DNA of 33,843 bases from Gammaproteobacteria bacterium. GTDB taxonomy: Bacteria; Pseudomonadota; Gammaproteobacteria; SZUA-152. Under the pieces are notes generated by a model. That model saw only the letters and a program-made list of their open reading frames with translations, was not told where the DNA came from and did not search any database. Position 1 is the first letter of the stretch. Each line of letters starts with the position of its first letter. Shown piece after piece: positions 3,827 to 25,047 of this stretch. The stretch lies in contig JAKIUF010000050.1 in NCBI GenBank assembly GCA_021647705.1, forward strand, positions 1 through 33,843, in the 5' to 3' direction. The translations under genes and the position numbers were made by a program.

Positions 3827-4969
3827 ATGACCCACCATTTACGTCGGCTTATTGTCATTGGCATCCTGCTCGGCATTGGTCTGGCCTTGGCTTGGTATTG
3901 GTCACAACCCAAACCAATACCGGTGCGTGTTGAGGTGGTGGAACGTGGTCCTATCGAATCCACCATCGCCAACACCCGCGCGGGCACCGTTAAGGCTTGC
4001 CAGCGTGCCAGACTCTCTCCCTCTATCGGTGGTCTTATTGCTCACTTGCCCATTAAACAGGGTGATCACGTCAAAACCGGGGAATTGCTGTTATCACTGT
4101 GGAATAAAGACCTCGATGCCCAGCTGCAACTTGCTGAACGCGAAGCGGTAGCCACCGCAGCCCGTGCTACTGAGGTATGCGTGGTCGCCGATGTAGCTCG
4201 TAGCGAGGCAAACCGCTTGGTGCAATTGCGCAAACAAAAACTTGCTTCGGACGACAGTACCGAACGTGCCGTGGGTGATGCCAAGGCCCGTGCCGCTGCC
4301 TGTCTGGCTGCCAGGGAATCACAGCGGGTGTCGCAGGCAAAAATCAATGTCAGCAAAGCCAATCTGGAACGTACCCGGCTTGTCGCGCCTTTTGACGGCA
4401 TCATCGCCAAAATCAACGGCGAGCTGGGTGAGTTTGTCACCCCCTCCCCGCCCGGTATTCCCACCCCACCTGCGGTGGACCTTATTGATAACCGTTGCCT
4501 GTATATTTCCGCGCCCATCGATGAGGTGGATGCTGCCAAAGTGAACGTGGGACAGCCCGTGCGCATTTCGCTGGATGCTTTCCCGGATAAAACTTTCGAT
4601 GGCAAAATCCGCCGTATCGCCCCCTTTGTGCTAGAGGTTGAAAAACAGGCACGCACTGTGGATGTGGAAGCAGAATTCACTCGGCCTGAAGATTACGCCC
4701 GGCTTCTGGGTGGCTACAGTGCTGACCTGGAAATTATTCTGGCCACCCGCCTGGATGTGTTACACATTCCCACTGAAGCCCTGATGGAAGATGATCATGT
4801 ACTGGTATTTTCCACAGATGAAAGCAAACTGCGTATCCGCAAAGTGAAAGTCGGCCTGTCTAACTGGAAATTGACAGAGGTCACTTCCGGCCTGAAGGAA
4901 GGCGAACAGGTGGTCACCAGTATCGACCGAAAAGGTGTAGAAAATGGTGCGCTGGCCCAACTCGAATAA
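3827..4969 (+). CDS. HlyD/MacA-type periplasmic adaptor (membrane fusion) subunit
   Basis: A 380-residue efflux adaptor. Residues 7-24 are an N-terminal membrane anchor; residues 57-92 and 185-205 (RLVAPFDGIIAKINGELGEFV region) are the two lipoyl half-motifs; the intervening residues 95-182 are Ala/Arg/Glu-rich and predicted as a coiled-coil hairpin; the remainder is beta-barrel and membrane-proximal domain. Adaptors of this type link an inner-membrane pump to an outer-membrane channel. The expected partners, a MacB-like ATPase and permeases, are about 6.4 kb downstream at 11418-14593, separated by an accessory island. No outer-membrane TolC gene is present. Function as an exporter subunit is well supported; the cargo is unknown. 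Confidence 0.9.
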   Translation: MTHHLRRLIVIGILLGIGLALAWYWSQPKPIPVRVEVVERGPIESTIANTRAGTVKACQRARLSPSIGGLIAHLPIKQGDHVKTGELLLSLWNKDLDAQLQLAEREAVATAARATEVCVVADVARSEANRLVQLRKQKLASDDSTERAVGDAKARAAACLAARESQRVSQAKINVSKANLERTRLVAPFDGIIAKINGELGEFVTPSPPGIPTPPAVDLIDNRCLYISAPIDEVDAAKVNVGQPVRISLDAFPDKTFDGKIRRIAPFVLEVEKQARTVDVEAEFTRPEDYARLLGGYSADLEIILATRLDVLHIPTEALMEDDHVLVFSTDESKLRIRKVKVGLSNWKLTEVTSGLKEGEQVVTSIDRKGVENGALAQLE

Positions 4970-5034
4970 ACAAATACGATTCCGTATATACCCATAGTGA
5001 TTACCCCCCTGATAATGTCGGAAGCCCCAAGATC

Positions 5035-5279
5035 ATGTGAATTATTCACTGATGCTATGCACTTGAATAATGAATCCGTGATCTGACGGTTTTTAAGATG
5101 ACGTTACAATGCGTATTCTGACTGAAACCTGGGCAGTATCAGCAACTCTCGGACAATCGTTCCAGTGTATTGGGAGTAAAGCTTTTAGTGTTGTTCTTTA
5201 CGTCCTTTGCGCCTCTGCGACCTCTGCGTTAAATATCCAGCGATTCTTAAACCAGATGTTTTTAGCACTGAATTCACAT
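5035..5279 (-). repeat. MITE-like repeat family 1, copy D (full, reversed)
   Basis: Reversed copy bounded by ATGTGAATTATTC (left) and CACTGAATTCACAT (right). The segment CTCTCGGACAATCGTTCCAGTGTATTGGGAG at 5150-5180 is the reverse complement counterpart of the extension seen in copies B and F. The retained hairpin arm is GCGCCTCTGCGACCTCTGCGTTAAATATCCAGCGATT; the partner arm is lost. It marks the left side of the accessory island. Confidence 0.72.
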
Positions 5280-5375
5280 TTGAGGCCACAGTGGAATTCG
5301 AAGACAGCATGAGTAACCCCATGTAGATGGCCTATTTTAGCGGAACTCGTGGTAACGAAAATGATTCGAAGGGAA

Positions 5376-5534
5376 CCCACCACGCTACTTTTCGTTATAA
5401 GGATATCAACAAGGGAAAACCCGGCACCAATCAGCCTCCACTTGTGGGGTAACGTGCGTTATGCCTTGAAAAGGCTGCATTACGACGGCACCCATGTGAT
5501 CTTTGAGCCTCTCGATTTCATTGCCCGGATGGCG
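5376..5534 (+). pseudogene. IS91-type (Y2) transposase relic
   Basis: Translating from 5445 gives WGNVRYALKRLHYDGTHVIF followed by EPLDFIARMA, ending at 5534. This closely matches the conserved segment 'VRYxLKTPYRDGTTHVIFEPLDFIARLA' of IS91/IS801-like transposases. In another frame, 5376-5420 reads HATFRYKDINKGKP, which may be the 'TFRYKD' segment of the same protein family, though this is tentative. No full-length frame exists and stops interrupt both sides, so this is a decayed fragment. It sits at the left boundary of the AT-rich island. Confidence 0.6.
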
Positions 5535-5782
5535 ATTATTCAGAAGCAGTGGATCCCCGAAAAAAGGACGGTTATACTCCGACACCTCTAAATTAACAAA
5601 CCGTAGGTTGACGGTGATAAATCAACCCCGCAGAAAACTATCTCGCTACGCCCGGTTTTCGCGATGTAAAGACAGGGCGTTGTACTACCAGCTCAAGCAC
5701 TTAGATATTTTAACAAAAACCCTAAGAAGTGAGCTGCGGGAGATTCAAGCCAAAGAAATTAATAATAAACAGGCTGGAAGAA

Positions 5783-6070
5783 ATGAAGCAATCAAATATT
5801 ATTGCCCGATTTTTTATGCTCATATTTATGATGGAGTTTTTGTTGGCATGTACCAGCAATAACAGTAATCCGTTACCTGTGAGCAACGGTACTCCCAACC
5901 TCAAAACTGTCGGTGATTATAGCATCAGCGATGGTAGTACCTCAGCCCAACCGTCTGCCTTTACGATCCCAGCCATTGATGCCAACACGTATTACTTCGC
6001 GGTAACTACCTACGATATCGATGGAACTGAAAGTGATTTTTCAAATATTGAAAGCAAAACCTTACCGTAG
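5783..6070 (+). CDS. Small lipoprotein, truncated paralogue of the Ig/FN3 lipoprotein downstream
   Basis: A 95-residue lipoprotein starting at the ATG at 5783. It has a signal peptide with lipobox LLAC (C23), matching the lipobox position of the 422-residue lipoprotein at 8172. The upstream sequence (AATAAACAGGCTGGAAGAA before the ATG versus AATAAAACAGGCGGAAAAA) and the first residues (MKQSNIIARF versus MKQATIITKF) are also alike. After a short linker it has GDYSISDGSTSAQPSAFTI, like the end of the second Ig repeat in the larger protein, and then a YYFAVTTYDIDGTES segment typical of a FN3 C-terminal strand. It therefore looks like an internally deleted duplicate. Whether it is expressed is unknown. 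Confidence 0.6.
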   Translation: MKQSNIIARFFMLIFMMEFLLACTSNNSNPLPVSNGTPNLKTVGDYSISDGSTSAQPSAFTIPAIDANTYYFAVTTYDIDGTESDFSNIESKTLP

Positions 6071-6270
6071 GAAGCTGCTGATCACGATCCAGCCTTGATA
6101 TTTTGTGAAGTTATGCACAGTTCACTTTTTCATTATTGATTATACTTCAGGGAGGGCTATATGGGTGACCCATAATTAGCGTTAGATATAGATACAAACC
6201 GGTAAGGTTTTAACAGCCCTTCATAAACAACTATTAAGCTTGTAGATAATAAAATGACAGTGAGGCGAAA

Positions 6271-8100
6271 ATGACAAAGTACCACAGTATTATATATTTA
6301 ACTCGATTTTTAATAACAACTATTTCATTAGTTATGGCTCCTGCTGCTTTTGCTTTGGTACCTGTACTCCATTTTTCAGATATTAATAGTGGCCCCAAAG
6401 TCGGCTTGGGCGATGGACTAGGCTCAGGTGCAATTGTCACAATCTGGGGTAATAACCTTGGCGACCTGCAAGGTGCTTCGAAAGTCTACATCGGCAACAA
6501 AGAGGCCGCCCATGTTTATTCATGGGCAAGGGCAGATGGGGAAAAGGCTGATGGCACCAACGCAAACGGCCCGGCAAACCTCTACACCTATCACAAGATA
6601 CAAGCCATCTCGTTTTCTATTCCAGCCACCGATGCTGACGGTGAAAACGATATTCATGTCACCGTCGGCGGCATGGACTCTAATACGCTACCATTCGTCA
6701 TCAGAGATGGGAATATTTTCTTTGTTTCACCAAATGGCAGCGATACTAATGATGGATCATTCGATAATCCATGGCAAACGTTAGCCCATGTTGCATCAGG
6801 TGCTGACGACAGGCTTAGCCCTGGTGACATTGCCTACGCAACTAATGGTGTAACACATACCGGAGGGGGGCTAATGGTCAGATCCTTAAGAGGAACGGCT
6901 GAGCGACCCTACACTATTGCTGCTTATCCTGGAGCAACCGTTTTGATAGACGATCCATCAAGTCGAGGCATTCACAACTTCAGTCGCCGTTCTGAGTTCT
7001 GGAATTTTTCAAAACTTAAAATCAAAACAAATGGTAATGGTATTCATACCTTCAAGGGCATGAGGGCTGTTGGTAACAGAATTACTAATCACGATTATGA
7101 CCGTGACGGCAACCTAGGTGGTTGTGCAAATGGACAAGGAGGAGCCATCAGTGGATCCAACTACGGGATTCGATCCGGTGCAGACGTACCAGATGTTGCT
7201 GGTGGTATAAAAGTGTACGGCAATCACATTCATGACTTCGGTTGTGAAACGACCTCTAAATTACACCATGTCTTTTATATCTCTAATCGTGGCGGCTCTA
7301 GCATTGAATCTTTCGAGCTAGGCTGGAATTACCTGCATGACAACAAGGCTCACCACGCTTTACACGTCTATGATGAAGGTGTCTGTGGTGATTTTTACAA
7401 CACCATGAAAATCCATAATAACGTTGTCATTAATCAAGTAGGTGCTGCTGTAAATATCGCCTCAGGCGGCCCAGGAGACACCTGCTTGTCCATGCCTGTT
7501 GAAATTTATAACAACCTCATGGTGAATACTGGCCTGGAGATATCAGGATGTAGTAATTGTAACCATTACTTTGCCATCCGCATTGTGATGAAAACGACTC
7601 GCTCACACGTGAGAATCATTAATAATACAATTTATGGTTATGGCGAGTCAGGTGAAGATGGTTATGCTTTGCATATTCAGGGTCAAGGCAGCGACACTTG
7701 GAACTTTGGTGGAACCTGGGAGTTTGAAAATAACATTATTGTTGATACCCATAACCTTCCATACCATTCACCGTATCGGAAAGAGCCTGAAACAGCAGAA
7801 GGTAATTTATGGTTCAATGGTGGTGATGATACGCCAGCAGCGGTGCCACCATGGAGCGCACCAGAGCTCAATTTCAACAATATTAATCCCCAGATGAATA
7901 GCCTGGCTGAAAATCCCTACACCATAACTGAAACATCCCCCGCAAATAACGCCGGAGTAGTGCCCACACTTCCCATTTCCTATGACCTGGCAGGTGTTCC
8001 TCGCGGGGGAGCGGGAGAGATTTCTATTGGTGCATACGAATACAGCGGTGCAGCAAAAGCTCCACCCAGTGCAACGCAATTAATGATTATTGACGAATAA
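6271..8100 (+). CDS. Secreted right-handed beta-helix protein with N-terminal IPT/TIG-like domain
   Basis: A 609-residue exported protein. Residues 1-28 form a signal peptide ending in AFA; residues 30-145 resemble an IPT/TIG immunoglobulin-like domain (AIVTIWGNNLGDLQGASKVYIGN); the motif FFVSPNGSDTNDGSFDNPWQ at about 150-170 is the entry of a DUF1565/pectate-lyase-like domain; and repeated N-N/IxNN-type rungs (IHNNVVINQVG, IYNNLMVNTG, IINNTIYGYG, FENNIIVDTH) are parallel beta-helix coils. The end DLAGVPRGGAGEISIGAYEY is a common C-terminal cap of such proteins. Members bind or cleave polysaccharide. GAGG precedes the ATG. It lies between the truncated and full copies of the lipoprotein gene. 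Catalytic residues were not identified, so enzymatic activity is uncertain. Confidence 0.82.
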   Translation: MTKYHSIIYLTRFLITTISLVMAPAAFALVPVLHFSDINSGPKVGLGDGLGSGAIVTIWGNNLGDLQGASKVYIGNKEAAHVYSWARADGEKADGTNANGPANLYTYHKIQAISFSIPATDADGENDIHVTVGGMDSNTLPFVIRDGNIFFVSPNGSDTNDGSFDNPWQTLAHVASGADDRLSPGDIAYATNGVTHTGGGLMVRSLRGTAERPYTIAAYPGATVLIDDPSSRGIHNFSRRSEFWNFSKLKIKTNGNGIHTFKGMRAVGNRITNHDYDRDGNLGGCANGQGGAISGSNYGIRSGADVPDVAGGIKVYGNHIHDFGCETTSKLHHVFYISNRGGSSIESFELGWNYLHDNKAHHALHVYDEGVCGDFYNTMKIHNNVVINQVGAAVNIASGGPGDTCLSMPVEIYNNLMVNTGLEISGCSNCNHYFAIRIVMKTTRSHVRIINNTIYGYGESGEDGYALHIQGQGSDTWNFGGTWEFENNIIVDTHNLPYHSPYRKEPETAEGNLWFNGGDDTPAAVPPWSAPELNFNNINPQMNSLAENPYTITETSPANNAGVVPTLPISYDLAGVPRGGAGEISIGAYEYSGAAKAPPSATQLMIIDE

Positions 8101-8171
8101 AATATGAGCCTCCCAGAAAAATCTGCGGGGAACACAACCTATCAATATTGCCAATAAAACAGGCGGAAAAA

Positions 8172-9440
8172 ATGAAACAGGCAACTATTATCACCAAGTT
8201 CTTATTAATTTTACTGATATCTGGAGTATTGCTGGCGTGCGGCACTGATGACAATGACAACGGGGGGGATAGCAGCAATCAGCCACCGACCATTAGCGGC
8301 ACACCCACCACTACCGTCAATGAAGGCAACTTCTATCACTTTGCGCCCATGGCCGCCGATAGCGATAGTGGAGACACCCTCACTTTCTCTATAAACAACA
8401 AACCAGCTTGGGCTAGTTTCGATAACCAGACAGGCATCCTCAGTGGCACACCCGGCCTAAGCGATGCAGGCGATTATGACAACATCACCATCAGCGTCAG
8501 CGATGGCACTGCTACCGCAGAACTAGCGGCCTTTATGATTTCAGTGGTCAACAATACCAATCAACCACCGACAATCACTGGCACGCCCGCCACTACTGTT
8601 AATGAAGACAGTCCCTATCACTTTGCGCCTATAGCCGCCGATGCCGATAGCGGTGACAGCCTCACATTCGCCATAAGCAACAAACCCTCCTGGGCTGGTT
8701 TCGATAACCAGACTGGCATCCTCAGCGGCACGCCCAGTCTGGACGATGCCGGTGATTACGGTAACATCATCATTAGTGTCAGCGACGGCACTGCTTCAGC
8801 CCAGTTGTCCGTTTTTACAATTTCGGTCATTGATGTCAGTCCAGCACTTTTGATTAGCACACACAGCCCCACCGCTCAGGCAATCGACACACCATTGCTC
8901 AGCAATATCACCATCACATTCGATACCCCACTGGATACAGCAACAGTGAGTGGCACCTCCGCTACCCTGCTAGAAACAAACAGTGTCGTGATTCCCGCCA
9001 CGCTAAACATAGACAATCAAACCATTACCATTGACCCGACCAGTAACCTTGAGCCGCTCACGACCTATACCGTCATCATCACCACTGCTGTTACCGGTAC
9101 AAATGGCGCAGCATTAGATAATGATTATTCCTGGAGCTTCACCACTCTGGCGGATACTGTGATCGACCCATCAAGAATCACCGTTAATCTCAGCTGGAAT
9201 ATTGGTGATACAAGCAATACCAACATATCACCCAGCGGTTATTTGATTTATTACGGCCGCCAAAGTGGCAGCCTCGCCAACAGTATTGATGTTGGCATGG
9301 TCGCCTCAAGAGCATTGAATGGCTCCGAATTCAATTTCACTGAAATTGGTGAATACTACTTCCAGGTAGTGGCTTACAATGCGGACAAATCCCTGTTCTC
9401 TGCGCCCAGCACAGAAGTAATCATTGATATCCATCCATAA
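8172..9440 (+). CDS. Outer-membrane lipoprotein with two He_PIG Ig-like repeats, Big_5-like and FN3-like domains
   Basis: A 422-residue lipoprotein. The signal peptide ends in lipobox LLAC (C23) with Gly at +2, which predicts outer-membrane sorting in gammaproteobacteria. Next come a Asp/Asn/Gly linker and two putative-Ig (He_PIG) repeats of 94 residues each, beginning QPPTISGTP and QPPTITGTP and both containing FDNQTGILSGTP and ISVSDGTA. Residues from about 230 to 330 resemble a Big_5 domain (ITITFDTPLD...YSWSFTT). The final 90 residues are FN3-like. Such proteins work as adhesins, scaffolds or substrate-binding surface proteins. I start at 8172 rather than the in-frame ATG at 8148 because only the later start puts the signal peptide at the N-terminus. 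Confidence 0.85.
   Translation: MKQATIITKFLLILLISGVLLACGTDDNDNGGDSSNQPPTISGTPTTTVNEGNFYHFAPMAADSDSGDTLTFSINNKPAWASFDNQTGILSGTPGLSDAGDYDNITISVSDGTATAELAAFMISVVNNTNQPPTITGTPATTVNEDSPYHFAPIAADADSGDSLTFAISNKPSWAGFDNQTGILSGTPSLDDAGDYGNIIISVSDGTASAQLSVFTISVIDVSPALLISTHSPTAQAIDTPLLSNITITFDTPLDTATVSGTSATLLETNSVVIPATLNIDNQTITIDPTSNLEPLTTYTVIITTAVTGTNGAALDNDYSWSFTTLADTVIDPSRITVNLSWNIGDTSNTNISPSGYLIYYGRQSGSLANSIDVGMVASRALNGSEFNFTEIGEYYFQVVAYNADKSLFSAPSTEVIIDIHP
8277..8840 (+). repeat. Two in-frame direct repeats of 282 bp
   Basis: Units begin at 8277 (AATCAGCCACCGACCATTAG) and 8559 (AATCAACCACCGACAATCAC). They are in frame, 282 bases apart, and highly similar at DNA level, including GGCATCCTCAGTGGCAC versus GGCATCCTCAGCGGCAC. 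This indicates fairly recent domain duplication within the lipoprotein gene. Confidence 0.88.
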
Positions 9441-9457
9441 TTTACGGGAAAAAAATC

Positions 9458-11029
9458 ATGACATTTTTTATGAAAAAACAAGTGCGTAAGATTTTTCACC
9501 GCCAGCCTCAAAAATATTCCTTGCTCGGCGCAGTTATGGTCTCATTGACCCTGCTGGCGGGCTCTGTAACGGCACAAAACTTTCCTCACATAAAAACATT
9601 TGGTTTTGATTATGTGCGCTTTGCCGATAACAACGGGGCATTGCTTGATAGCTTGCGATGGGCAGCAAATCACCATGACTGGGTTGTCGGTCCAAAAGGG
9701 AACTGGCCGCTACAGGGTGTTGATTACATGGATACATTAACCTACAACACGATAAAAGAGGCAAACCCGAACGCCAAGATAATGAAATATCTCCCCTATC
9801 ACAGCATCGCTCCTACGACAGAGGTATGGCTCGAAAATTGGTGCGAGGAAAACGGAAAAAATCCTGAGGAGCTTTATTATCATTATTACTATGACACAAC
9901 CATCAGTCTTTCAAATGGCAACACACTCGATATACCTGGATATGGTGGAGGAACGGCAGAGAATCTGGAAGAAGCCAGGGTACGAGTCAGATGGAATGGT
10001 GGATGGGTAGGCATCAACCCCTCTTCACAAACTTTCCGTGAAGCTTATCAGGCACTGTCGCTTCATGTTATTACGCTTGAAGGAACCACTGATGTTTTTG
10101 CTGATGGTTTATTCCTGGATACTTTTGATGGAATGGTTAATCAGGCTAATTACACCAGCTTTTTGGAAAACACCATTGAGCTTAAAGACATCGGCACAAA
10201 AGATGAAATTTACGCACAAGTCACCGCTGACATGGCTAACTCCGCCAATGAATTAAAAGATTTCCTGATTCAAAAAACGGGCAACCCGAATTTCAGATTA
10301 CAGGCTAACCCGGCAGTTCCACGTTATATTTACAACACATTCAGCGATTTGTTTAATGAGCAATACCGCAACCTTCTTATGGACCTAACAGTGGAATACC
10401 TTGTGACAACGGGAGCAAGAATAAATGATATTCCGTATTTACAACAGATATACGATGACATGGACAACGGAAGATTATTTTTTATACGCAGCCAAACAAA
10501 CTTCGGCCCATCAACAGAGATTCCATTTGAGTTTACTCAATTTGCCCTCTCTACACATTATTTGATCAACCATGAAAATGCTCATTTTATGTATCATTAC
10601 GGTAATGCCGGCAACTACGGAGGAGCATCCTACGGAAATTTGGAGCCAACACATTGGCACCAAAACATGGAGGTAAATATCGGGGTTCCAGTATCACGGC
10701 CCGAGAATGATTACTGGGCTGTTGAAAACACTGACCGCTTTTATGAGTTTGCTAGCGGTAATGGCTACAACATCCTGGCCCGTGAATACTCCAACGCCTT
10801 GGTACTGGCAAAATATTCACGCGGTGGGTGGGCAAATATCGGCACTAACCCAACCACACATCAACTGGGCGGAGACTATTATCCCCTGCTCGAAGATAAC
10901 AGCACGGGTGCCGCTGTGACCAGCGTAACGCTAGGTGAGAGTGAAGGCATTATATTACTTAAAAACCCGGTAATCGGCAGCCTTCCGCGCCCGCAGATCA
11001 CCGAGTCCAGCTTTGCGATCAACCCATAA
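9458..11029 (+). CDS. Secreted TIM-barrel glycoside hydrolase-like protein (GHL15-like)
   Basis: A 523-residue exported protein. The signal peptide ends near VTA-Q40. The mature protein opens with a strand and F-D-Y-V-RFADNN, continues with AKIMKYLPYHS, and contains DVFADGLFLDTFDGM at about 212-226, where D216 and D221 lie at the end of a predicted beta-strand as in the catalytic position of TIM-barrel glycosidases. The arrangement recalls the 'hypothetical glycosyl hydrolase family 15' (GHL15) group. It follows the lipoprotein gene by 17 bases and is probably co-transcribed with it. With the beta-helix protein this suggests an extracellular polysaccharide-acting set. The substrate and even hydrolytic activity are inferences. 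The start could also be the ATG at 9470. Confidence 0.72.
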   Translation: MTFFMKKQVRKIFHRQPQKYSLLGAVMVSLTLLAGSVTAQNFPHIKTFGFDYVRFADNNGALLDSLRWAANHHDWVVGPKGNWPLQGVDYMDTLTYNTIKEANPNAKIMKYLPYHSIAPTTEVWLENWCEENGKNPEELYYHYYYDTTISLSNGNTLDIPGYGGGTAENLEEARVRVRWNGGWVGINPSSQTFREAYQALSLHVITLEGTTDVFADGLFLDTFDGMVNQANYTSFLENTIELKDIGTKDEIYAQVTADMANSANELKDFLIQKTGNPNFRLQANPAVPRYIYNTFSDLFNEQYRNLLMDLTVEYLVTTGARINDIPYLQQIYDDMDNGRLFFIRSQTNFGPSTEIPFEFTQFALSTHYLINHENAHFMYHYGNAGNYGGASYGNLEPTHWHQNMEVNIGVPVSRPENDYWAVENTDRFYEFASGNGYNILAREYSNALVLAKYSRGGWANIGTNPTTHQLGGDYYPLLEDNSTGAAVTSVTLGESEGIILLKNPVIGSLPRPQITESSFAINP

Positions 11030-11077
11030 ATCAGCGACATCACGTCACTGCGATCTATTGACGTTTTATTTTCATCA

Positions 11078-11296
11078 CTACTGGAGCCACTTTTTTCGCC
11101 CTGCAAAGCGGAAGAAGTGGCCCAGCCCTTCGGATTGAGCCTGAAAAAGCGCCACTCGACGCTGCTCGCCGCTCATTTGGAATAAGCAAATTTCTCTTCC
11201 TCGCACCTTGATTGGCGTTTTTTTTGAGTTAAAGCACACCCTCCCTGGGAAATAGTTTTTTGCCAGATCACTGACAATTACGTTACGCTTAGCCAT
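11078..11296 (-). CDS. Small hypothetical protein (72 aa)
   Basis: An unrecognised, Lys/Arg-rich 72-residue frame beginning MAKRNVIVSDLAKNYF. What supports it is a perfect GAGGAG ribosome site six bases before the ATG at 11296. It is oriented against all its neighbours and sits at the right end of the accessory island, just before the ABC operon. It has no signal peptide or membrane segment. It could be the N-terminal remnant of a longer mobile-element gene. Nothing more can be said about its role. Confidence 0.42.
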   Translation of the reverse strand: MAKRNVIVSDLAKNYFPGRVCFNSKKTPIKVRGREICLFQMSGEQRRVALFQAQSEGLGHFFRFAGRKKWLQ

Positions 11297-11417
11297 TAGT
11301 GGCTCCTCATTTGTTTCTGGTCGAACATGCAGTTTACTTGTCAGATGGAGGGAGTCTCATACATCGGTACAGGTCGGAGTGACAAAATGGAAGAGATATT
11401 ACTTTCATCTGCCCAAC

Positions 11418-12119
11418 ATGATTCGACTAACTGACATTCAACGTGATTTCCAGGTGGGCGACCAGCAGGTACACGCCCTGCGCGACATCAATTTACAGGT
11501 TGCTGCCGGGGAATACATTTCCATCATGGGACCGTCCGGTTCCGGAAAGTCCACCCTGCTGAATATGATCGGCCTGCTCGACCAGCCCACAGCCGGACAC
11601 TACCAGTTAGATGGTCAGGATGTGACGACCCTGAGCGACGAACAACAAGCGCGCACCCGCCGGGAAAAAATTGGTTTCGTATTTCAGTTCTTTCACCTGG
11701 TACCACGGCTCACCGCCGCGCAAAATATCGCTCTGCCCTTGATGCTGGCTGGCATGCCGGAAAAACAGCGCAATCAGAAAGTACAAATGGCGCTGCAACA
11801 AATGGGCATCGCCGACCGCGCCGGACATCGCCCGGACCAGCTCTCCGGCGGCCAGCGCCAACGCGTGGCCATTGCCCGTGCCACAGTTATCGGGCCCGCA
11901 GTGTTACTCGCAGACGAACCCACCGGCAACCTGGACAGCGCCGCCGGTACTGAAGTGGTGAAAATACTTGAACAACTTAACGCCAACGGGTTGACACTAC
12001 TTGTGGTTACTCACGATGAAACACTGGGCAAACGTGCCAGACGCCGTATTCACATGATCGATGGTGCTATCGAACATGACACGTTGTTACAAAACCACAC
12101 ACCACCGGCAAGCCCGTGA
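11418..12119 (+). CDS. ABC transporter ATP-binding protein (MacB/LolD-type)
   Basis: A 233-residue ATPase of the MacB/LolD subfamily, the usual length for a free-standing subunit. Visible motifs are Walker [10 protein letters not shown] (38-46), Q-loop Q90, signature LSGGQ (142-146), Walker B VLLADEP (162-168) and H-loop H199. The ATG at 11418 matches the family start ([11 protein letters not shown]); an in-frame GTG at 11379 would add 13 residues and neither has a strong ribosome site. The stop overlaps the next permease's GTG start by four bases. It energises the two FtsX-like permeases downstream, probably working with the adaptor at 3827. Confidence 0.95.
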
Positions 12120-18088: not shown

Positions 18089-18943
18089 ATGCCCTCCTCT
18101 CCGCAGAAAATCACAGATGCTTACGCCTATTGCCAGCAAATGGTGCGCAGCCACTATGAAAACTTTCCCGTGGCCTCCTTCATTTTGCCCAAACGCCTGC
18201 GCCAACCCATCAGTGTGATTTACGCCTTCGCACGCACGGCGGATGATTTTGCTGACGAGGGTGACTGGGATGCCAAAACCCGGCTCACAAAACTCAGGGA
18301 ATATGATGAATATCTGGATGCCATCGCCAATGATGAAGCTATTGATAATCCCATTTTTATCGCGCTGGCCGATGTCATCAAGAAACACGATTTACCATTA
18401 CAGCTGTTTCACGATTTGATTACGGCCTTTCGATTGGATGTCAGCAAAAAACGTTTTACCGATATTGATGATGTGTGGGATTACTGCCGTTATTCTGCCA
18501 ACCCGGTGGGCCGCCTGTTGTTGCATTTAATGGATGCCGCCACTGCGGAAAATCTTGAACATTCTGATGCTGTTTGCAGCGCCTTACAGTTAATCAATTT
18601 TTTGCAGGACATCGAACAGGACTTTGTGGAGAACCAGCGTATTTATTTACCGCAGGCAGATTTACAGCGTTTCGGGGTCAGCGAAGAACATTTCCGTACA
18701 CGACGCAGCGATGATGCCTTTACGCGGTTGCTGCAACAGCAAATCACCTATGCGCGCGAAAAAATGTTGTTCGGAAAACCTCTGGGCCGCGCTGTGGGCG
18801 GTCGTTTTGGTTTTCAATTACGTTTGATGATTAACGGCGGGCTGCGTATTCTGGAATTACTGGAGCGTCAGCAGGGTAATCTGTTTTCACGGCCACGCTT
18901 ACGTAAACGCGACGGATTGTGGATGTTTTTACGGGCTTTATAA
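18089..18943 (+). CDS. hpnC: Hydroxysqualene synthase HpnC
   Basis: A 284-residue trans-isoprenyl diphosphate synthase-like protein of the squalene/phytoene synthase family. It starts with HYENFPVASFILPKRLRQP and contains the first Asp motif (D52 and D53 through D56 in ARTADDFADEGD) and the second (D174 and D178 in INFLQDIEQDFVENQR). In the three-enzyme bacterial route HpnD makes presqualene diphosphate, HpnC converts it to hydroxysqualene and HpnE reduces this to squalene, the hopanoid precursor. It differs from the hpnD product at 22812 in motif sequence. It is separated from hpnDE by two unrelated minus-strand genes, unlike the usual adjacent hpnCDE arrangement. Confidence 0.92.
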   Translation: MPSSPQKITDAYAYCQQMVRSHYENFPVASFILPKRLRQPISVIYAFARTADDFADEGDWDAKTRLTKLREYDEYLDAIANDEAIDNPIFIALADVIKKHDLPLQLFHDLITAFRLDVSKKRFTDIDDVWDYCRYSANPVGRLLLHLMDAATAENLEHSDAVCSALQLINFLQDIEQDFVENQRIYLPQADLQRFGVSEEHFRTRRSDDAFTRLLQQQITYAREKMLFGKPLGRAVGGRFGFQLRLMINGGLRILELLERQQGNLFSRPRLRKRDGLWMFLRAL

Positions 18944-20137: not shown

Positions 20138-20243
20138 TGGCGTGTTGTAAACGCGGGGAACACAGAGAAAAACGGTAAAAACTCCGTGCCCTCTGCGTCT
20201 CTGCGTTAAATATCCTGCAACGCTCTAAAGTATGAATCTAAAT
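20138..20243 (-). repeat. MITE-like repeat family 1, copy E (short)
   Basis: A shortened reversed copy: TAAACGCGGGGAACACAGAG...CCCTCTGCGTCTCTGCGTTAAATATCCTGCAACGC followed by AAAGTATGAATCTAAATGA. The terminal segment overlaps the 3' end of the aldolase/dehydrogenase gene, and its CTA (20238-20240) is that gene's TAG stop read on the minus strand. Confidence 0.7.
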
Positions 20244-22220
20244 GACCCGGTCATTCCCCCCATCAACCGGGATTTGCGCACCGGTAGTTTTGGCGAACAA
20301 CGGGCCAGCCAAAGCACAGGCCAGTGCTGCTACATCTGCTGAACTAATTTCTACTTTTAGCAGGTTTTTGGTTTTGTATTCCTGCACACTCATTCCATAA
20401 TGACGCGCACGATTTTCCAGCACTTCCTCGGTCCAGATGGCAGTGTCAAATACAGCATCCGGGTGCAACACATTAACGCGAATACCTTTAGGCCCCAGTT
20501 CCAGCGCGGCGACCCGTGCCAATTGCGTCAACCCTGCTTTCGCCACTGAATAGGCTGCTGCTCCTGGCCCTGGCGCAGTGACGTTTTTCGAGGCCATGAA
20601 CACCACTGCCGGATCAATGCCCCGCTCCAGATACGGGATGCAGCACTGCAACAGCTGTTCATGGCTGCTGAGGTTGATTTGCAGGCTGCGCTCCCAAACC
20701 GTGCTGTCCATTTCATCAATACGACTGTTGGAGGGAAAACTGCCTGCATTGCTGACCACGATATCCAGCCCACCAAAGCGTCGTACCACTTCATCCACGG
20801 CAACCTGCAAAGCCTGCACATCCGTCACATCACACTGCCAACCCACCAGGTCTGCCTTGGTAAACTGTGTCGCCACTGCCAGATCAATATCCAATGCCAG
20901 CACTGCGGCTCCCTGTGCATGCAGGGTCTCGGCACAGGCACGGCCAATGCCGCTGGCCGCTCCCGTCACCAGGGCAATTTTTCCCGCAAAAATGGCGGGG
21001 GTGCCTGCTTTGCGCAGCTTGGCCTGCTCCAGGTCCCAGTATTCCACCTCAAAAATGTCTTTTTCCGGCAATGCCTGCCAACCCCCCAGGCATTCGGCAC
21101 GCTGGATGGCACGCAAAGTATGGCCAGCAATATCAGCAATAATACCGGCCTCTTTGACACTGGTACCAAAAGCCAGTGCGCCCTGCCCCGGCCATACCGC
21201 CCAGCGCGGGGCAGGATCAAGACAGGTCAGGTCAGCGGAAGCATTACGGGAAAAATAGGCACGATAATCATCACCGAAAGCGCTCACTGCGGCATCCGGC
21301 TCTGTATCGAGAATCATCGGCACACGCTTGGTACGAATCACATGATCAGGGGTCAGCGGGCCACGGGTGGCAATCTCTGCCACGTTCGGTAAATTTGCAA
21401 AACCCACCGCCTCGGCGGAGACATCCCAACGCACGATACAAGGCATGCCACGGGCATGCGACACGGCACGGCGAATATCAGCCAGCGACCGCAGCACAAC
21501 CGCACTTTCAGCTGCGGGCTTCGGTTCCGTGCTTGCTATGCTGGTTCCTGCTTGCTCCAGCACATTTTCCGCCATCGTCACCAGCGCGATCATGCGTTCA
21601 TAACTGACACGGGCATCATCGGCAAAACTGAACACGCCATGATTCATCAGCACCATGCCATCGAGTTGTGACCAATCCACATCACGGGTCAGCTCGTGAA
21701 TCACTTTTGCCAGCACAAACCCCGGCATAGTGTACGGCACAATCAATACCCGCTCTCCGTACAAATCACGCACGCGCGCCTCACCATTCGGTGAGTTGGT
21801 CAACGTCACCACCGCATCAGCATGGGTATGATCAACGAATCTGAACGGAATAATAGCGTGCAAAATGGCCTCAACAGAGGGGTTTGGTGCATAAGGGTCG
21901 CTCATTGCCGCGCGCTGGGCTCGCACCATGTCCGGGTCGGAAAGCGTGGGCAACTCCGCCATACGTTTGAGTGTTTCAAGACACACCGGTGCAAACCCCG
22001 GTGCCTCAATAGTGGCCAGATCCCAGCCACTGCCTTTCACGTACAATATCGGCTTGTGCTCGCCGAACAGGTCCGCCACTTCCGTCTTCACCGAGGTATT
22101 GCCCCCCCCGTGCAAGACTAACGAGGGTTCACAGCCCAGCAATCGTGAGCTGTATACACGCATTTCGAGCGGGTTTTCCGCAAAAGAAGCCGCCGTTTTT
22201 TCGTTCCACAGACTTTGCAT
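20238..22220 (-). CDS. Bifunctional class II aldolase / short-chain dehydrogenase
   Basis: A 660-residue fusion. The N-terminal 400 residues are a class II (zinc) aldolase/epimerase domain with the HGGGNTSVK motif at 37-45, zinc-ligand candidates H131 and H133 in DHTHADAVV and H194 in MNHGVFSF. The C-terminal 240 residues are an SDR with the nucleotide motif TGAASGIG and catalytic YSVAK. The architecture matches the rhamnulose-1-phosphate aldolase/lactaldehyde dehydrogenase type (RhaEW-like) and related fusions of unassigned substrate. No rhamnose transport, isomerase or kinase genes are nearby, so rhamnose use is not established. It is oriented against hpnD, from which repeat copy F separates it. 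Confidence 0.9.
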   Translation of the reverse strand: MQSLWNEKTAASFAENPLEMRVYSSRLLGCEPSLVLHGGGNTSVKTEVADLFGEHKPILYVKGSGWDLATIEAPGFAPVCLETLKRMAELPTLSDPDMVRAQRAAMSDPYAPNPSVEAILHAIIPFRFVDHTHADAVVTLTNSPNGEARVRDLYGERVLIVPYTMPGFVLAKVIHELTRDVDWSQLDGMVLMNHGVFSFADDARVSYERMIALVTMAENVLEQAGTSIASTEPKPAAESAVVLRSLADIRRAVSHARGMPCIVRWDVSAEAVGFANLPNVAEIATRGPLTPDHVIRTKRVPMILDTEPDAAVSAFGDDYRAYFSRNASADLTCLDPAPRWAVWPGQGALAFGTSVKEAGIIADIAGHTLRAIQRAECLGGWQALPEKDIFEVEYWDLEQAKLRKAGTPAIFAGKIALVTGAASGIGRACAETLHAQGAAVLALDIDLAVATQFTKADLVGWQCDVTDVQALQVAVDEVVRRFGGLDIVVSNAGSFPSNSRIDEMDSTVWERSLQINLSSHEQLLQCCIPYLERGIDPAVVFMASKNVTAPGPGAAAYSVAKAGLTQLARVAALELGPKGIRVNVLHPDAVFDTAIWTEEVLENRARHYGMSVQEYKTKNLLKVEISSADVAALACALAGPLFAKTTGAQIPVDGGNDRVI

Positions 22221-22248: not shown

Positions 22249-22737
22249 TTGAATGTGAATTAAGCGCTAAAAACGCGCCATTTAAAAAATCACCGGGTAT
22301 TTAACGCAGAGATCGCAGAGGCGCAGAGGACACAGAGTTTTTAGTGTTTTTCGCTGTGTCCTCTGCGTCTCCGTGACCTCTGTGTTCATAACACGTCATT
22401 TGTCAGCTCCACTAAACATAATTCCCCTATGTGCTGAAACGCTTGTCCGAGGTTAAACCTCTGGATTCCAACCGAAAACATACCAGAGCGACGATATACC
22501 CGTAGCGATTGAGGTTTAGGCACTCATTGCATGCCCCTTCAGGCCATGGCTGCGTTGACATTTCTCACAATAGAGCGGCTATTATTCGTCATTTTGCCTC
22601 ACCTAAAAGCGCCTACCTTTGGTGTCATGAAATGAATATGACGCACACTGAACACCTAAACCTCAATCGCTACGCTATGGGTATATTTTCAGTACCAAAG
22701 TGCTAACAGAACGGTTTAACCCTTAATTCACATTTGA
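22249..22737 (+). repeat. MITE-like repeat family 1, copy F (longest, contains a nested element)
   Basis: Terminal repeats TTTGAATGTGAATTAAGCGC (left) and CCTTAATTCACATTTGA (right) are inverse complements. The hairpin arms ATTTAACGCAGAGATCGCAGAG...CTGTGTCCTCTGCGTCTCCGTGACCTCTGTGTTCATAA are the best preserved in the window. The length of about 490 bases is explained by a family 2 element inserted at 22495-22685. A REP-like palindrome is at 22459-22493. It covers almost the whole aldolase-hpnD gap and ends 74 bases before the hpnD start. Confidence 0.88.
22495..22685 (-). repeat. MITE-like repeat family 2, copy 2 (nested in family 1 copy F)
   Basis: TATACCCGTAGCGATTGAGG (left) and CCTCAATCGCTACGCTATGG then GTATA (right) form long inverted ends 191 bases apart. 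The interior is homologous in reverse complement to 15078-15288. Flanking sequence on both sides belongs to family 1, which shows this element inserted later. Confidence 0.82.
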
Positions 22738-22811
22738 GTAGATGCAATCCGTTCTTTGCTGCGTATAATACGGCAAAATATGTTGCCGCCCACCACCTCA
22801 AGTATTTTCTT

Positions 22812-23699
22812 ATGACCCCTGACGAATATTGCCAGGACAAAACAGCCAAAAGCGGCTCCAGCTTTTATTACAGCTTTCTGTTTTTGCCCGAAGCACAACG
22901 CAAAGCCATCACCACCCTATATGCCTTTTGTCGGGAAGTGGATGACGTGGTAGACGAATGCAGTGATACCGACCTCGCCCGCAGTAAGCTCAACTGGTGG
23001 CGCGCAGAAATTTTCGGTACCTTTGACGACAAGCCCAGTCATCCCGTCTGCCAGGCATTAACCACCAGCATCGCCAACTTCAATTTACCCAGGGAACATT
23101 TCATCGAAATCATTGATGGCATGGAAATGGACCTACAGCAAACTCGCTACGACACCTTTGCAGAACTGAACCTGTATTGTTATCGCGTCGCCAGCGTGGT
23201 GGGACTGATGGCCGCAGAAATTTTCGGATTCAAGGATCGCTCCACCCTGGATTATGCACATAATCTCGGACTTGCCTTCCAGCTCACCAATATTTTACGC
23301 GACGTCAAAGAAGACGCCGAACGTGGGCGTATCTATTTACCGTTAGAAGAACTGGAAAAATTTGCTGTCAGTGAACAGGATATTCTCGAAAACCGCTGTA
23401 CGGATAACATGAAAAAGTTACTCGACTTTCAAGCGCAACGGGCGCAGGACTGTTACGACAAAGCCTTTGCTTTACTGCCTGAGGCTGATCGGTATGCGCA
23501 ACGTACCGGTTTGATTATGGCCAGCATTTACCGGACTACGCTGAATACCATTCAGCAGGACAGTTGTCAGGTACTGACACAGCGCATTTCCAGCAGCCCG
23601 CTGAAAAAACTCTGGATTGCCTGGCGTACCGCACGCACAGAAAAACGTCGTCACAAACGTTTTCAAAAAAAACCACCCTCACTGCCCAATGAAACCTGA
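22812..23699 (+). CDS. hpnD: Presqualene diphosphate synthase HpnD
   Basis: A 295-residue squalene/phytoene synthase-family enzyme. The start MTPDEYCQDK and following SGSSFYYSFLFLP are typical of HpnD; the Asp motifs are D44-D45-x-x-D48 in REVDDVVDE and D164 to D168 in NILRDVKEDAERGRIYLP. It condenses two farnesyl diphosphates to presqualene diphosphate. I use the ATG at 22812 because upstream frame extends into repeat copy F via a TTG at 22734. No clear ribosome site is seen. Its stop overlaps hpnE by 11 bases, so the two genes are translationally coupled. Confidence 0.94.
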   Translation: MTPDEYCQDKTAKSGSSFYYSFLFLPEAQRKAITTLYAFCREVDDVVDECSDTDLARSKLNWWRAEIFGTFDDKPSHPVCQALTTSIANFNLPREHFIEIIDGMEMDLQQTRYDTFAELNLYCYRVASVVGLMAAEIFGFKDRSTLDYAHNLGLAFQLTNILRDVKEDAERGRIYLPLEELEKFAVSEQDILENRCTDNMKKLLDFQAQRAQDCYDKAFALLPEADRYAQRTGLIMASIYRTTLNTIQQDSCQVLTQRISSSPLKKLWIAWRTARTEKRRHKRFQKKPPSLPNET

Positions 23700-25047
23700 C
23701 CCTGAAACAAAGCCAGTTATTGTCATTGGTGGTGGCTGGGCAGGCATTGCCGCCGCCGTAGAGCTGGCACGCCATGACATCCCGGTGATTTTGCTGGAAT
23801 CCGCCAAACAACTGGGGGGGCGTGCGCGCAGCGTAAATATAGATAAATTACATGTGGATAATGGCCAACATATGTTGTTAGGTGCTTACGAGTCCACGCT
23901 TGATTTATTGCGCAGGATTGGCATCAACAAAAACGACGTGCTGCAACGAAAGCCACTGTCTTTGCAATGGTATCGCCCCGGTAAAAAACCGGTTTCACTC
24001 AACACCCCCAATCTACCTGCGCCGTTTCATCTCGCCTGGGCCTTGTTAACCCTGCAAGGCTTGTCGTTGCGGGACAGATTATCTGCCCTGCGTTTTGCCC
24101 GGCGACTGGAAAAAAATAACTTCACTCTCGATGATGATTGCAGCGTTGCGGATTTTTTAGCGCAACATCATCAATCTCCGGCACTCATTCATGCCTTGTG
24201 GGAACCATTGTGTATCGGCGCACTGAACACACACCTGCACGAAGCCTCAGCACAGGTTTTTTTGCGCACCCTGGGAGACAGCTTCAGCCATACCCGAAGT
24301 GATTCTGACTTACTGCTAACCCGTGTCAATCTCGGTTCGGTTTTACCAAAACCGGCTGCGGATTACATCGAGAGACACAAAGGCAGCGTACGCCTGGGGC
24401 AACGCGTCAGTGCACTGTGTATCGAGAACGGAAGCATCACTGGCGTCACCATCGATAACACCAGCATTGCGGCCAACGAAGTCATTCTGGCTACCCCACA
24501 CACCACCGCCCTGCGCTTGTTAAGCCCGCATGATTTATTACAGGAAACCTGTCAACAAATAGCTCAATTGCAAGACCGGCCTATTTGCACAGTCTACTTG
24601 CAGTTTGACAAAACGGTGCGGCTCGGTCGCTGGCTGTGTGGATCACTGGGGACAGTCAGCCAGTGGATTTTTGATCGCGGCCTTTATGGCCAACACGGCT
24701 TGATGGCCATCGTCATCAGTGGTGACGGTGAGCACCTGCAATGGGATAACCAAACACTCTGCACACAAGTCACCGCAGAAATTGCGACACAATACCCGCA
24801 GTGGCCAGCACCTCAATCACAACAAGTGATTCGGGAAAAACGTGCCACCTTTGCCAGCACAGTAAACGTCAATCAACATCGCCCCAATGCTGACACCGCC
24901 GTGCAAGGTTTATGGCTGGCAGGTGATTACACCAACACCCATCTGCCCGCCACACTAGAAGGTGCGGTACGCAGCGGGCGCTATAGCGCGCAACAGATTA
25001 TCACCGCCCATCGGCGACAACGACACCAGCAACAGGAAAAAACATGA
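23689..25047 (+). CDS. hpnE: Hydroxysqualene dehydroxylase HpnE
   Basis: A 452-residue flavoprotein of the amine oxidase/phytoene desaturase superfamily. The FAD Rossmann motif VIVIGGGWAGIAAAVELA is at 10-27 with GGRARS following, and the C-terminal FAD contact is GLWLAGDYT-NTHLPATLEGAVRSG. HpnE reduces hydroxysqualene to squalene with FAD. The ATG at 23689 overlaps the end of hpnD by 11 bases; an in-frame start at 23617 would be inside hpnD. The next gene's ATG overlaps its stop (ATGA), so hpnD-hpnE-SDR form one operon. Length matches the family. Confidence 0.95.
   Translation: MKPDPETKPVIVIGGGWAGIAAAVELARHDIPVILLESAKQLGGRARSVNIDKLHVDNGQHMLLGAYESTLDLLRRIGINKNDVLQRKPLSLQWYRPGKKPVSLNTPNLPAPFHLAWALLTLQGLSLRDRLSALRFARRLEKNNFTLDDDCSVADFLAQHHQSPALIHALWEPLCIGALNTHLHEASAQVFLRTLGDSFSHTRSDSDLLLTRVNLGSVLPKPAADYIERHKGSVRLGQRVSALCIENGSITGVTIDNTSIAANEVILATPHTTALRLLSPHDLLQETCQQIAQLQDRPICTVYLQFDKTVRLGRWLCGSLGTVSQWIFDRGLYGQHGLMAIVISGDGEHLQWDNQTLCTQVTAEIATQYPQWPAPQSQQVIREKRATFASTVNVNQHRPNADTAVQGLWLAGDYTNTHLPATLEGAVRSGRYSAQQIITAHRRQRHQQQEKT

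Follow-up and report, generated by a model that had tools for sequence, protein, structure and literature searches.

A partly decayed gene block encoding exported, putatively polysaccharide-acting proteins interrupts an efflux operon in a gammaproteobacterium

PslG, PelA and AlgL are exported hydrolases and lyases that are encoded with polysaccharide-synthesis genes, while the polysaccharide utilization loci of Bacteroidota are clusters of surface carbohydrate-active proteins that include a SusC/SusD pair. Beta-helix proteins are typical phage depolymerases, and phage fibre genes exchange parts while their ends stay fixed. GHL15 (PF14885) belongs to the glycoside-hydrolase-like families GHL1-GHL15, which are predicted TIM barrels (PMC5765458).

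The locus compared with these systems lies in a stretch of 33,843 nucleotides from a gammaproteobacterium (hereafter, the window). It encodes a TIM-barrel-like protein (TB family), a putative beta-helix protein (BH family) and a lipoprotein, and carries the remnant of a further family, here called the companion. The features are as follows.

3827..4969, + strand, HlyD/MFP-type adaptor gene (Pfam HlyD_D23, HlyD_3), left flank of the insertion
4979..11401, no strand, inserted segment; the unoccupied site of L062 (genome G004) is homologous up to 4978 and again from 11402
5178..5262, no strand, piece of a short interspersed repeat (blastn, 81-88%)
5273..5428, + strand, remnant of the companion family (~370 aa) with an internal stop (profile match, E 9.3e-9)
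5430..5540, + strand, ISCR/IS91-like transposase remnant (NCBIfam NF052416, ISCR clade Ia, E 2.5e-4, 19.7 bits)
5783..6070, + strand, second Ig/FN3-type lipoprotein, broken: the lipobox-bearing leader and the C-terminal end remain, most of the middle is deleted
6271..8100, + strand, exported BH family protein, 609 aa, TIG-like N-terminus, putative beta-helix (sub-threshold domain matches)
8172..9440, + strand, lipoprotein, 422 aa (Pfam He_PIG, Big_5, weak fn3)
9458..11029, + strand, exported TB family protein, 523 aa, TIM-barrel-like
11418..12119, + strand, ABC ATPase, ORF intact (Pfam ABC_tran), right flank of the insertion

The bounds of the inserted segment were taken from blastn against L062-L067. 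The HlyD-type gene is present in 17/24 genomes of the order, counting the window genome, and in 16/16 of the other genomes that have it the ATPase gene lies directly 3′; in the window this partner is 6.4 kb away. The window ATPase, for which the Pfam scan was run from 11379, is 98.7% identical to the L062 copy. GC content is 0.45-0.49 in the three block genes and 0.55-0.58 in the flanking operon. No inverted repeats or duplicated ends were recognized in a repeat search over the block, a promoter and terminator scan gave counts no higher than shuffled sequences, and searches gave no Rfam match and no tRNA. An identity as known plasmid cargo was rejected, as TB, BH and one companion domain had no match in 72,556 plasmid records.

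The left end of the block is damaged. The original prediction placed the start of the island at 5783, but the gene there (5783-6070) is broken and has lost most of its middle; its final 31 residues match the C-terminus of an intact lipoprotein in G020 at 90% identity. DNA from 5973-8827 is 78% identical to L026. The companion remnant was matched by tblastn at 29/56 identical residues (E 2e-14, 1302-base subject). The neighbouring transposase remnant, at 19.7 bits, is far under the full-length NF052416 cut-off of 925 and had no Pfam transposase match; an ISCR-like element of this kind may have moved the block. Two relatives, L063 and L064, also carry the short interspersed repeat between their HlyD and ATPase genes. 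Because it is partly decayed, the block may be non-functional.

The three genes to the right are complete ORFs on the forward strand with an export signal each, as predicted. These signals were read by inspection rather than with a signal-peptide program: a Sec-type leader on the proteins encoded at 6271-8100 and 9458-11029, and a lipobox (Cys 23) on that encoded at 8172-9440, for which the ORF list gives a start further upstream, at a TTG (8148). For the predicted beta-helix protein, the gene and leader held up but the domain matches stayed sub-threshold (TIG, 18.4 bits against a cut-off of 20.9; choice_anch_Q, 23.7 against 25). Relatives of this protein are 83% and 76% identical in G020 and 38%, 30% and 28% identical on viral contigs. 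The assignment of the second protein as an Ig/FN3 outer-membrane lipoprotein was retained for the lipobox, He_PIG (two stretches) and Big_5, the domains scoring above Pfam cut-offs, but not for fn3 (22.8 bits, cut-off 25). It is probably a surface anchor or scaffold; in G017 and G020, which are sister genomes of the window's, lipoprotein N-terminal regions that resemble it are joined to a companion domain.

For the third protein, neither the TIM-barrel fold nor the GHL15 membership proposed for it was established. The fold is not shown because searches with TB returned chance-level rows only in Pfam, PHROGs and PDB sequences (and no row in NCBIfam), and two AlphaFold2 runs gave mean pLDDT of 34 and 36. 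Searches of PDB sequences with TB, BH and companion alignments also gave chance-level rows only. No PF14885 match appeared at E 0.1 with the window TB or at E 1 with a further four TB proteins, and the window's own genome had no PF14885 match at E 1e-10, a search that found 1/143 genomes of the class. Profile-profile comparison of TB with GHL15 gave an hhalign E of 0.016 over the C-terminal part only, no better than decoys. When 3 single GHL15 sequences and 101 other ORFs (including 6 TB copies and 2 sharing T9SS tails) were ranked against TB, the GHL15 sequences came 18, 25 and 33 of 104, all three in one register. TB and GHL15 proteins are alike in being exported, in comparable length and, by eye, in motif order (an ‘FxD’ acidic stretch mid-protein and ‘GIxL’ at the C-terminal end); they differ in that TB has no Pfam match and a profile-profile score not above decoys. 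In G049, one of three GHL15 genes follows a flippase-like ORF.

The candidate catalytic acids, D216 and D221, fared differently: D221 is invariant in 7/7 complete TB sequences, but D216 is Glu in 1/7. Seventeen acidic positions, D221 and E313 included, are invariant in all seven, the phage copy among them. The window TB aligns over its whole length, with no stops, with copies 45-72% identical. It is a mosaic in which residues 61-360 track a flavobacterial copy and both ends track the gammaproteobacterial copy (FastTree support values and identity bootstrap). TB is very rare: it was found in 2/186 relatives (own genome counted), in 1/369 genomes of the class (own only) and in 1/397 Flavobacteriaceae (the source itself), and when 84,980 species genomes were scanned with a pattern, 3 loci emerged, one of which is that of G017.

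Co-occurrence beyond this strain was found in part: members of the families are grouped in other genomes, but the exact trio in the same order was in no locus read. G017 has the order lipoprotein, TB, lipoprotein/companion, and G020 has BH, lipoprotein, BH, lipoprotein/companion; the window DNA at 6256-8849 matches it at 81% identity. Two Flavobacteriaceae MAGs encode proteins with T9SS tails, in the orders beta-helix-type protein, TB, TB (L014) and TB, TB, companion (L015). These three genes do not make up a fixed system; other loci carry different combinations. The grouping nonetheless exceeds chance, because related genes adjoin in other genomes and the block breaks an otherwise continuous operon; that the genes are chance neighbours of one strain was ruled out by the recurrence of related genes elsewhere. 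The L014 beta-helix-type protein was rejected as a BH orthologue (E 0.25 against the window BH); it matches the distant BH of G055 weakly (E 0.001, 209 residues). Since it has no significant similarity to the window BH, its position next to TB may be convergence.

The proposal of a surface polysaccharide system draws some support from the setting of companion genes in two other genomes. The companion family, which may resemble a ‘toroid’ fold, is encoded in G099 in the midst of genes resembling those for glycosyltransferases, O-ligases and sulfotransferases, while in G177 its neighbours resemble pyruvyl-transferase and RfbC genes; the matches of the four neighbours scanned are under curated cut-offs. 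A distant BH gene lies near a flippase-like ORF identified by eye. A scan of 20 window proteins surrounding the block turned up no recognizable polysaccharide-synthesis gene, nor did inspection by eye of the surroundings of the flavobacterial copies. TB, BH and companion had no carbohydrate-enzyme family match above cut-off and no glycoside hydrolase or lyase match in Pfam scans. The companion family apparently resembles PslG, PelA and AlgL in accompanying putative synthesis genes in those two genomes, whereas the window copy has none recognized alongside.

Homologues were also found on phage contigs. The one phage homologue of TB, 46% identical, is on L025, where a single small gene separates it from the major head gene upstream and an SU10-like adaptor follows. 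BH homologues lie among tail genes in L054 and next after a major head gene in L055; the L054 protein has a leader-like N-terminus, so secretion may be its fate instead of a place on the particle. Companion homologues occur on L078, where the setting is partly identified, and on L079, where the copy is outside the structural genes; the viral scan with the companion gave 0 matches with a 3-row alignment and 2 with a 9-row alignment. Named phages gave no match in tblastn with TB, the phage TB, BH and two companion domains. The scanned neighbours of the window genes are bacterial, and a location in virion structural blocks is seen only in relatives (TB in L025, BH in L054 and L055). TB and BH thus have homologues in virion gene blocks, as tailspikes and depolymerases would, but the window proteins differ from these in having bacterial export signals and in matching no PHROGs depolymerase family.

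On balance, we lean toward the block being a cassette, gained by horizontal transfer and in part decayed, whose products act on polysaccharide outside the cell. That the set instead digests foreign polysaccharide for nutrition, in the manner of a polysaccharide utilization locus, and does not remodel matrix is unlikely. The T9SS-tailed surface or secreted proteins of Flavobacteriaceae, which form clusters as in such loci, would fit it, as would a TonB-dependent-receptor-like ORF and sigma/anti-sigma-like ORFs seen by eye in L015, ~4 kb upstream on the far side of an ArgS-like gene. However, no transporter, sugar-catabolism gene or SusC/SusD pair was recognized by eye directly in the clusters, the gammaproteobacterial relatives lie beside Ig lipoproteins, and the companion genes of G099 and G177 are among synthesis-like genes.

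An origin in phage receptor-binding or depolymerase modules, domesticated with export signals and possibly serving to decoy phages or to attack neighbours, is more doubtful still. All three families have phage-contig homologues, TB and BH within structural blocks, and the swapped middle and fixed ends of TB are like phage fibre gene exchange. Against this, inspection by eye of the ORFs that surround the bacterial copies revealed no recognizable phage gene, and the direction of transfer between phages and bacteria cannot be read from one phage TB that is only 46% identical. We consider it equally improbable that the block is a decaying passenger with no present function in this strain: the three broken genes or elements at its left end and the split efflux operon are what such a block would leave, but the three long ORFs and their export signals are intact, and TB aligns full length and stop-free with its diverged copies.

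If the block is the cassette that we favour, TB, BH and the lipoprotein would be exported, with the Ig lipoprotein tethering the set to the outer membrane, a part that T9SS tails would play in Flavobacteriaceae. TB and BH would bind and then cleave or remodel one extracellular polysaccharide, of the cell's own matrix or a neighbour's, with D221 and E313 as the first candidates for the TB acids. Phages may use related proteins, some of them on the particle, to cross such a polysaccharide layer.

The homologues in another phylum and on phage contigs suggest traded tools for handling bacterial slime. Tentatively, TB, BH and the companion could form an undescribed toolkit against one polymer, loose modules exchanged among bacterial phyla and phages, in which the catalytic core would cross phyla by recombination while the export and anchoring ends stay the host's own (Sec leader and Ig lipoprotein, T9SS tail, or phage particle). 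If so, three families that lack a specific model in Pfam, NCBIfam and PHROGs scans would have as their target a polysaccharide that bacteria and their phages alike encounter, in hydrothermal chimney communities and elsewhere. The mosaic TB would then show clearly how a functional core can cross phyla while export signals stay local, and TB, BH and companion would be new depolymerase candidates.

The three-gene block, encoding BH (a putative beta-helix protein), an Ig/FN3-type lipoprotein and TB (a TIM-barrel-like protein), is an insertion in a HlyD-ATPase operon. It lies on the window, contig C65 of a 4.4 Mb, 82-contig genome, with a HlyD-type adaptor gene on its left and, on its right, an ABC ATPase gene followed by two MacB/FtsX-type permease genes. 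In the order of this genome, 24 genomes were searched; the HlyD gene was present in 17, the own genome included (search at E 1e-40), and in the other 16 the ATPase gene lay directly 3′ of it across a gap of at most ~600 bases, compared with 6.4 kb in the window. At the closest empty site, locus L062 of a relative, HlyD and the ATPase were 90% and 98.7% identical to those of the window and the gap was ~40 bases; homology ends at 4978 and restarts at 11402. GC content was 0.45–0.49 in the BH, lipoprotein and TB genes versus 0.55–0.58 in the flanking operon, and a search over the block found no inverted repeats. Features of the inserted DNA, in which "companion" denotes a fourth family of ~370 amino acids, were as follows.

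5273–5428, companion remnant, a stop-interrupted scrap
5430–5540, ISCR-type transposase-like fragment (E 2.5e-4)
5783–6070, lipoprotein remnant, most of the middle lost, last 31 residues 90% identical to those of the complete lipoprotein of sister genome G020
6271–8100, + strand, BH gene, complete
8172–9440, + strand, lipoprotein gene, complete, with He_PIG and Big_5 domains
9458–11029, + strand, TB gene, complete

The original prediction of three genes on one strand was borne out, all three being complete ORFs, and the inserted block is partly decayed. ISCR elements are able to carry neighbouring DNA, because of which the ISCR-like element at 5430–5540 may have moved the block. The HlyD-ATPase gap appears to be a recurrent insertion site, since it holds a short interspersed repeat in two relatives (L063 and L064) and a ~600-base filler in another locus (L065); a piece of the repeat is present in the window at 5178–5262. 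A 72-amino acid ORF close to the right-hand boundary of the insert (11078–11296, − strand), with no Pfam or NCBIfam match, may be what is left of a mobile element. Elsewhere, the window encodes two squalene/phytoene synthases and an amine-oxidase-type protein (18089–18943, 22734–25047), of kinds known from hopanoid or carotenoid pathways, and a single gene (20238–22220) fuses a class II aldolase with a short-chain dehydrogenase.

Export signals of BH, the lipoprotein and TB were read from sequence. BH gave matches to TIG and choice-of-anchor-Q, both sub-threshold, and TB had no significant match to any family or PDB sequence in the scans. TB had been called GHL15-like, but membership of that family was not established: no Pfam match was obtained, and in profile comparison with TB, three GHL15 sequences ranked 18th, 25th and 33rd of 104. 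Two AlphaFold2 runs gave low-confidence models (mean pLDDT 34 and 36), which do not establish the proposed TIM-barrel fold. Seventeen acidic positions, including D221 and E313, were invariant in all seven complete TB sequences; of the two acids originally proposed, D221 is among these and D216 is Glu in one of the seven. As a guess from sequence, D221 and E313 are the candidate acids, picked because their surroundings are hydrophobic and strand-like.

Genes related to the block travel together. The order in sister genome G017 (L011; also L016, JAKIUN010000004.1) is lipoprotein, TB, and a lipoprotein with a companion domain at its end; in G020 (L026) it is BH, lipoprotein, BH, lipoprotein/companion, and the L026 DNA is 81% identical to the window across 6256–8849. 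Of two Flavobacteriaceae MAG loci, L015 has the order TB, TB, companion, and L014 has a protein judged by eye to be of beta-helix type, followed by two TB genes, the second of which is broken off by the contig end. The L014 beta-helix-type protein had no significant similarity to the window BH and a weak match (E 0.001) to a distant BH of G055. T9SS sorting tails end all five complete flavobacterial cluster proteins. Sample names D96SM and D100SM are attached to L014, L015 and L016, and one study uses them for data from Southwest Indian Ridge chimney metagenomes (PMC9174799); from these names we infer that the MAGs come from that study. In G017, G022 and G020 (L011, L059, L060), a companion gene, or the end of one, lies beside a common set of thioredoxin-like, TauE-like, GGDEF/EAL and aldehyde dehydrogenase genes, and therefore that genus has a shared cluster site, unlike that of the window. 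A second TB copy in the own genome is alone on contig C46 (L012:1037–12168), near ORFs resembling a Fic protein, a restriction-modification-type methyltransferase, a nuclease and a helicase, a neighbourhood that by eye is defence-type.

TB was found in 2 of 186 relatives (own genome included), 2 of 24 order genomes, 1 of 369 class genomes (the own genome alone) and 1 of 397 Flavobacteriaceae (the source genome itself). Three TB loci emerged when 84,980 species genomes were scanned by pattern, a method that overlooks divergent copies; own-genome records may be missing from that set. BH was present in 6/186 relatives at E 1e-5, own included, with >70% identity only in the own genome and G020; the companion was present in 6/186, counting the window remnant.

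TB identities were computed over ungapped columns. For residues 61–360, the window copy shared 81% identity with the L014 copy and 50% with that of G017; the corresponding values were 46% and 73% for residues 1–60, and 67% and 76% for residues 361–505, the last being a small difference (95% interval −0.17 to 0.00). The same tendency was seen at third codon positions. In FastTree analyses, the middle of the window TB grouped with the L014 copy (support 0.997) and its C-terminal part with the two gammaproteobacterial copies (0.854); in L015, two TB copies with unlike middles share a C-terminal part (0.968). Because region identities and tree groupings agree, the TB middle looks exchanged, with the ends staying with the host lineage and the C-terminal signal the weaker.

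Homologues of these families also occur on viral contigs. One IMG/VR contig (L025) carries a TB homologue, 46% identical and with no leader seen, in the order major head gene, one small gene, TB homologue, 898-amino acid protein, SU10-like adaptor; two more viral scans gave none beyond it. BH homologues lie among baseplate and tail-fibre genes in L054, as the next long ORF 3′ of the major head gene in L055, and on a third contig, L056. The companion homologue of L078 lies near a gene that gave lytic-tail and transglycosylase matches, and that of L079 is outside any structural block; they share 26%–34% identity with the bacterial copies (E 6e-27 to 8e-37, 11-sequence comparison). No query tried matched a named phage. 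Different phage proteins at L025:11416–14112 and L078:7995–9023 have near-identical end motifs (NRLLLGIG and NRMMLGIG), perhaps a common attachment or assembly tag.

Phage depolymerases and matrix-processing enzymes as such are already known; what seems new here is the TB, BH and companion families, their module trading and the TB mosaic. Literature searches of partial coverage listed nothing on these families, which have no searchable name. Two companion genes in G099 are among ORFs resembling glycosyltransferases, acetyltransferases, an aminotransferase, an O-ligase-like membrane protein and a sulfotransferase-like protein, and in G177 four companion genes in tandem are next to a pyruvyl-transferase-like gene, a glycosyltransferase-like ORF and an RfbC-like ORF; four of these neighbours were scanned, with matches below curated cut-offs, and the rest were read by eye from translations. 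In G051, a flippase-like ORF (by eye) lies near a distant BH gene. BH, the lipoprotein and TB would be exported by Sec, and the Ig lipoprotein would tether the set at the outer membrane, a holding role suggested by G017 and G020, in which comparable lipoprotein regions are fused to the companion domain. TB and BH may then act on one extracellular polysaccharide, a polymer not indicated by the window itself. Because companion genes sit in synthesis-like clusters, matrix remodelling is favoured over feeding as the putative role.
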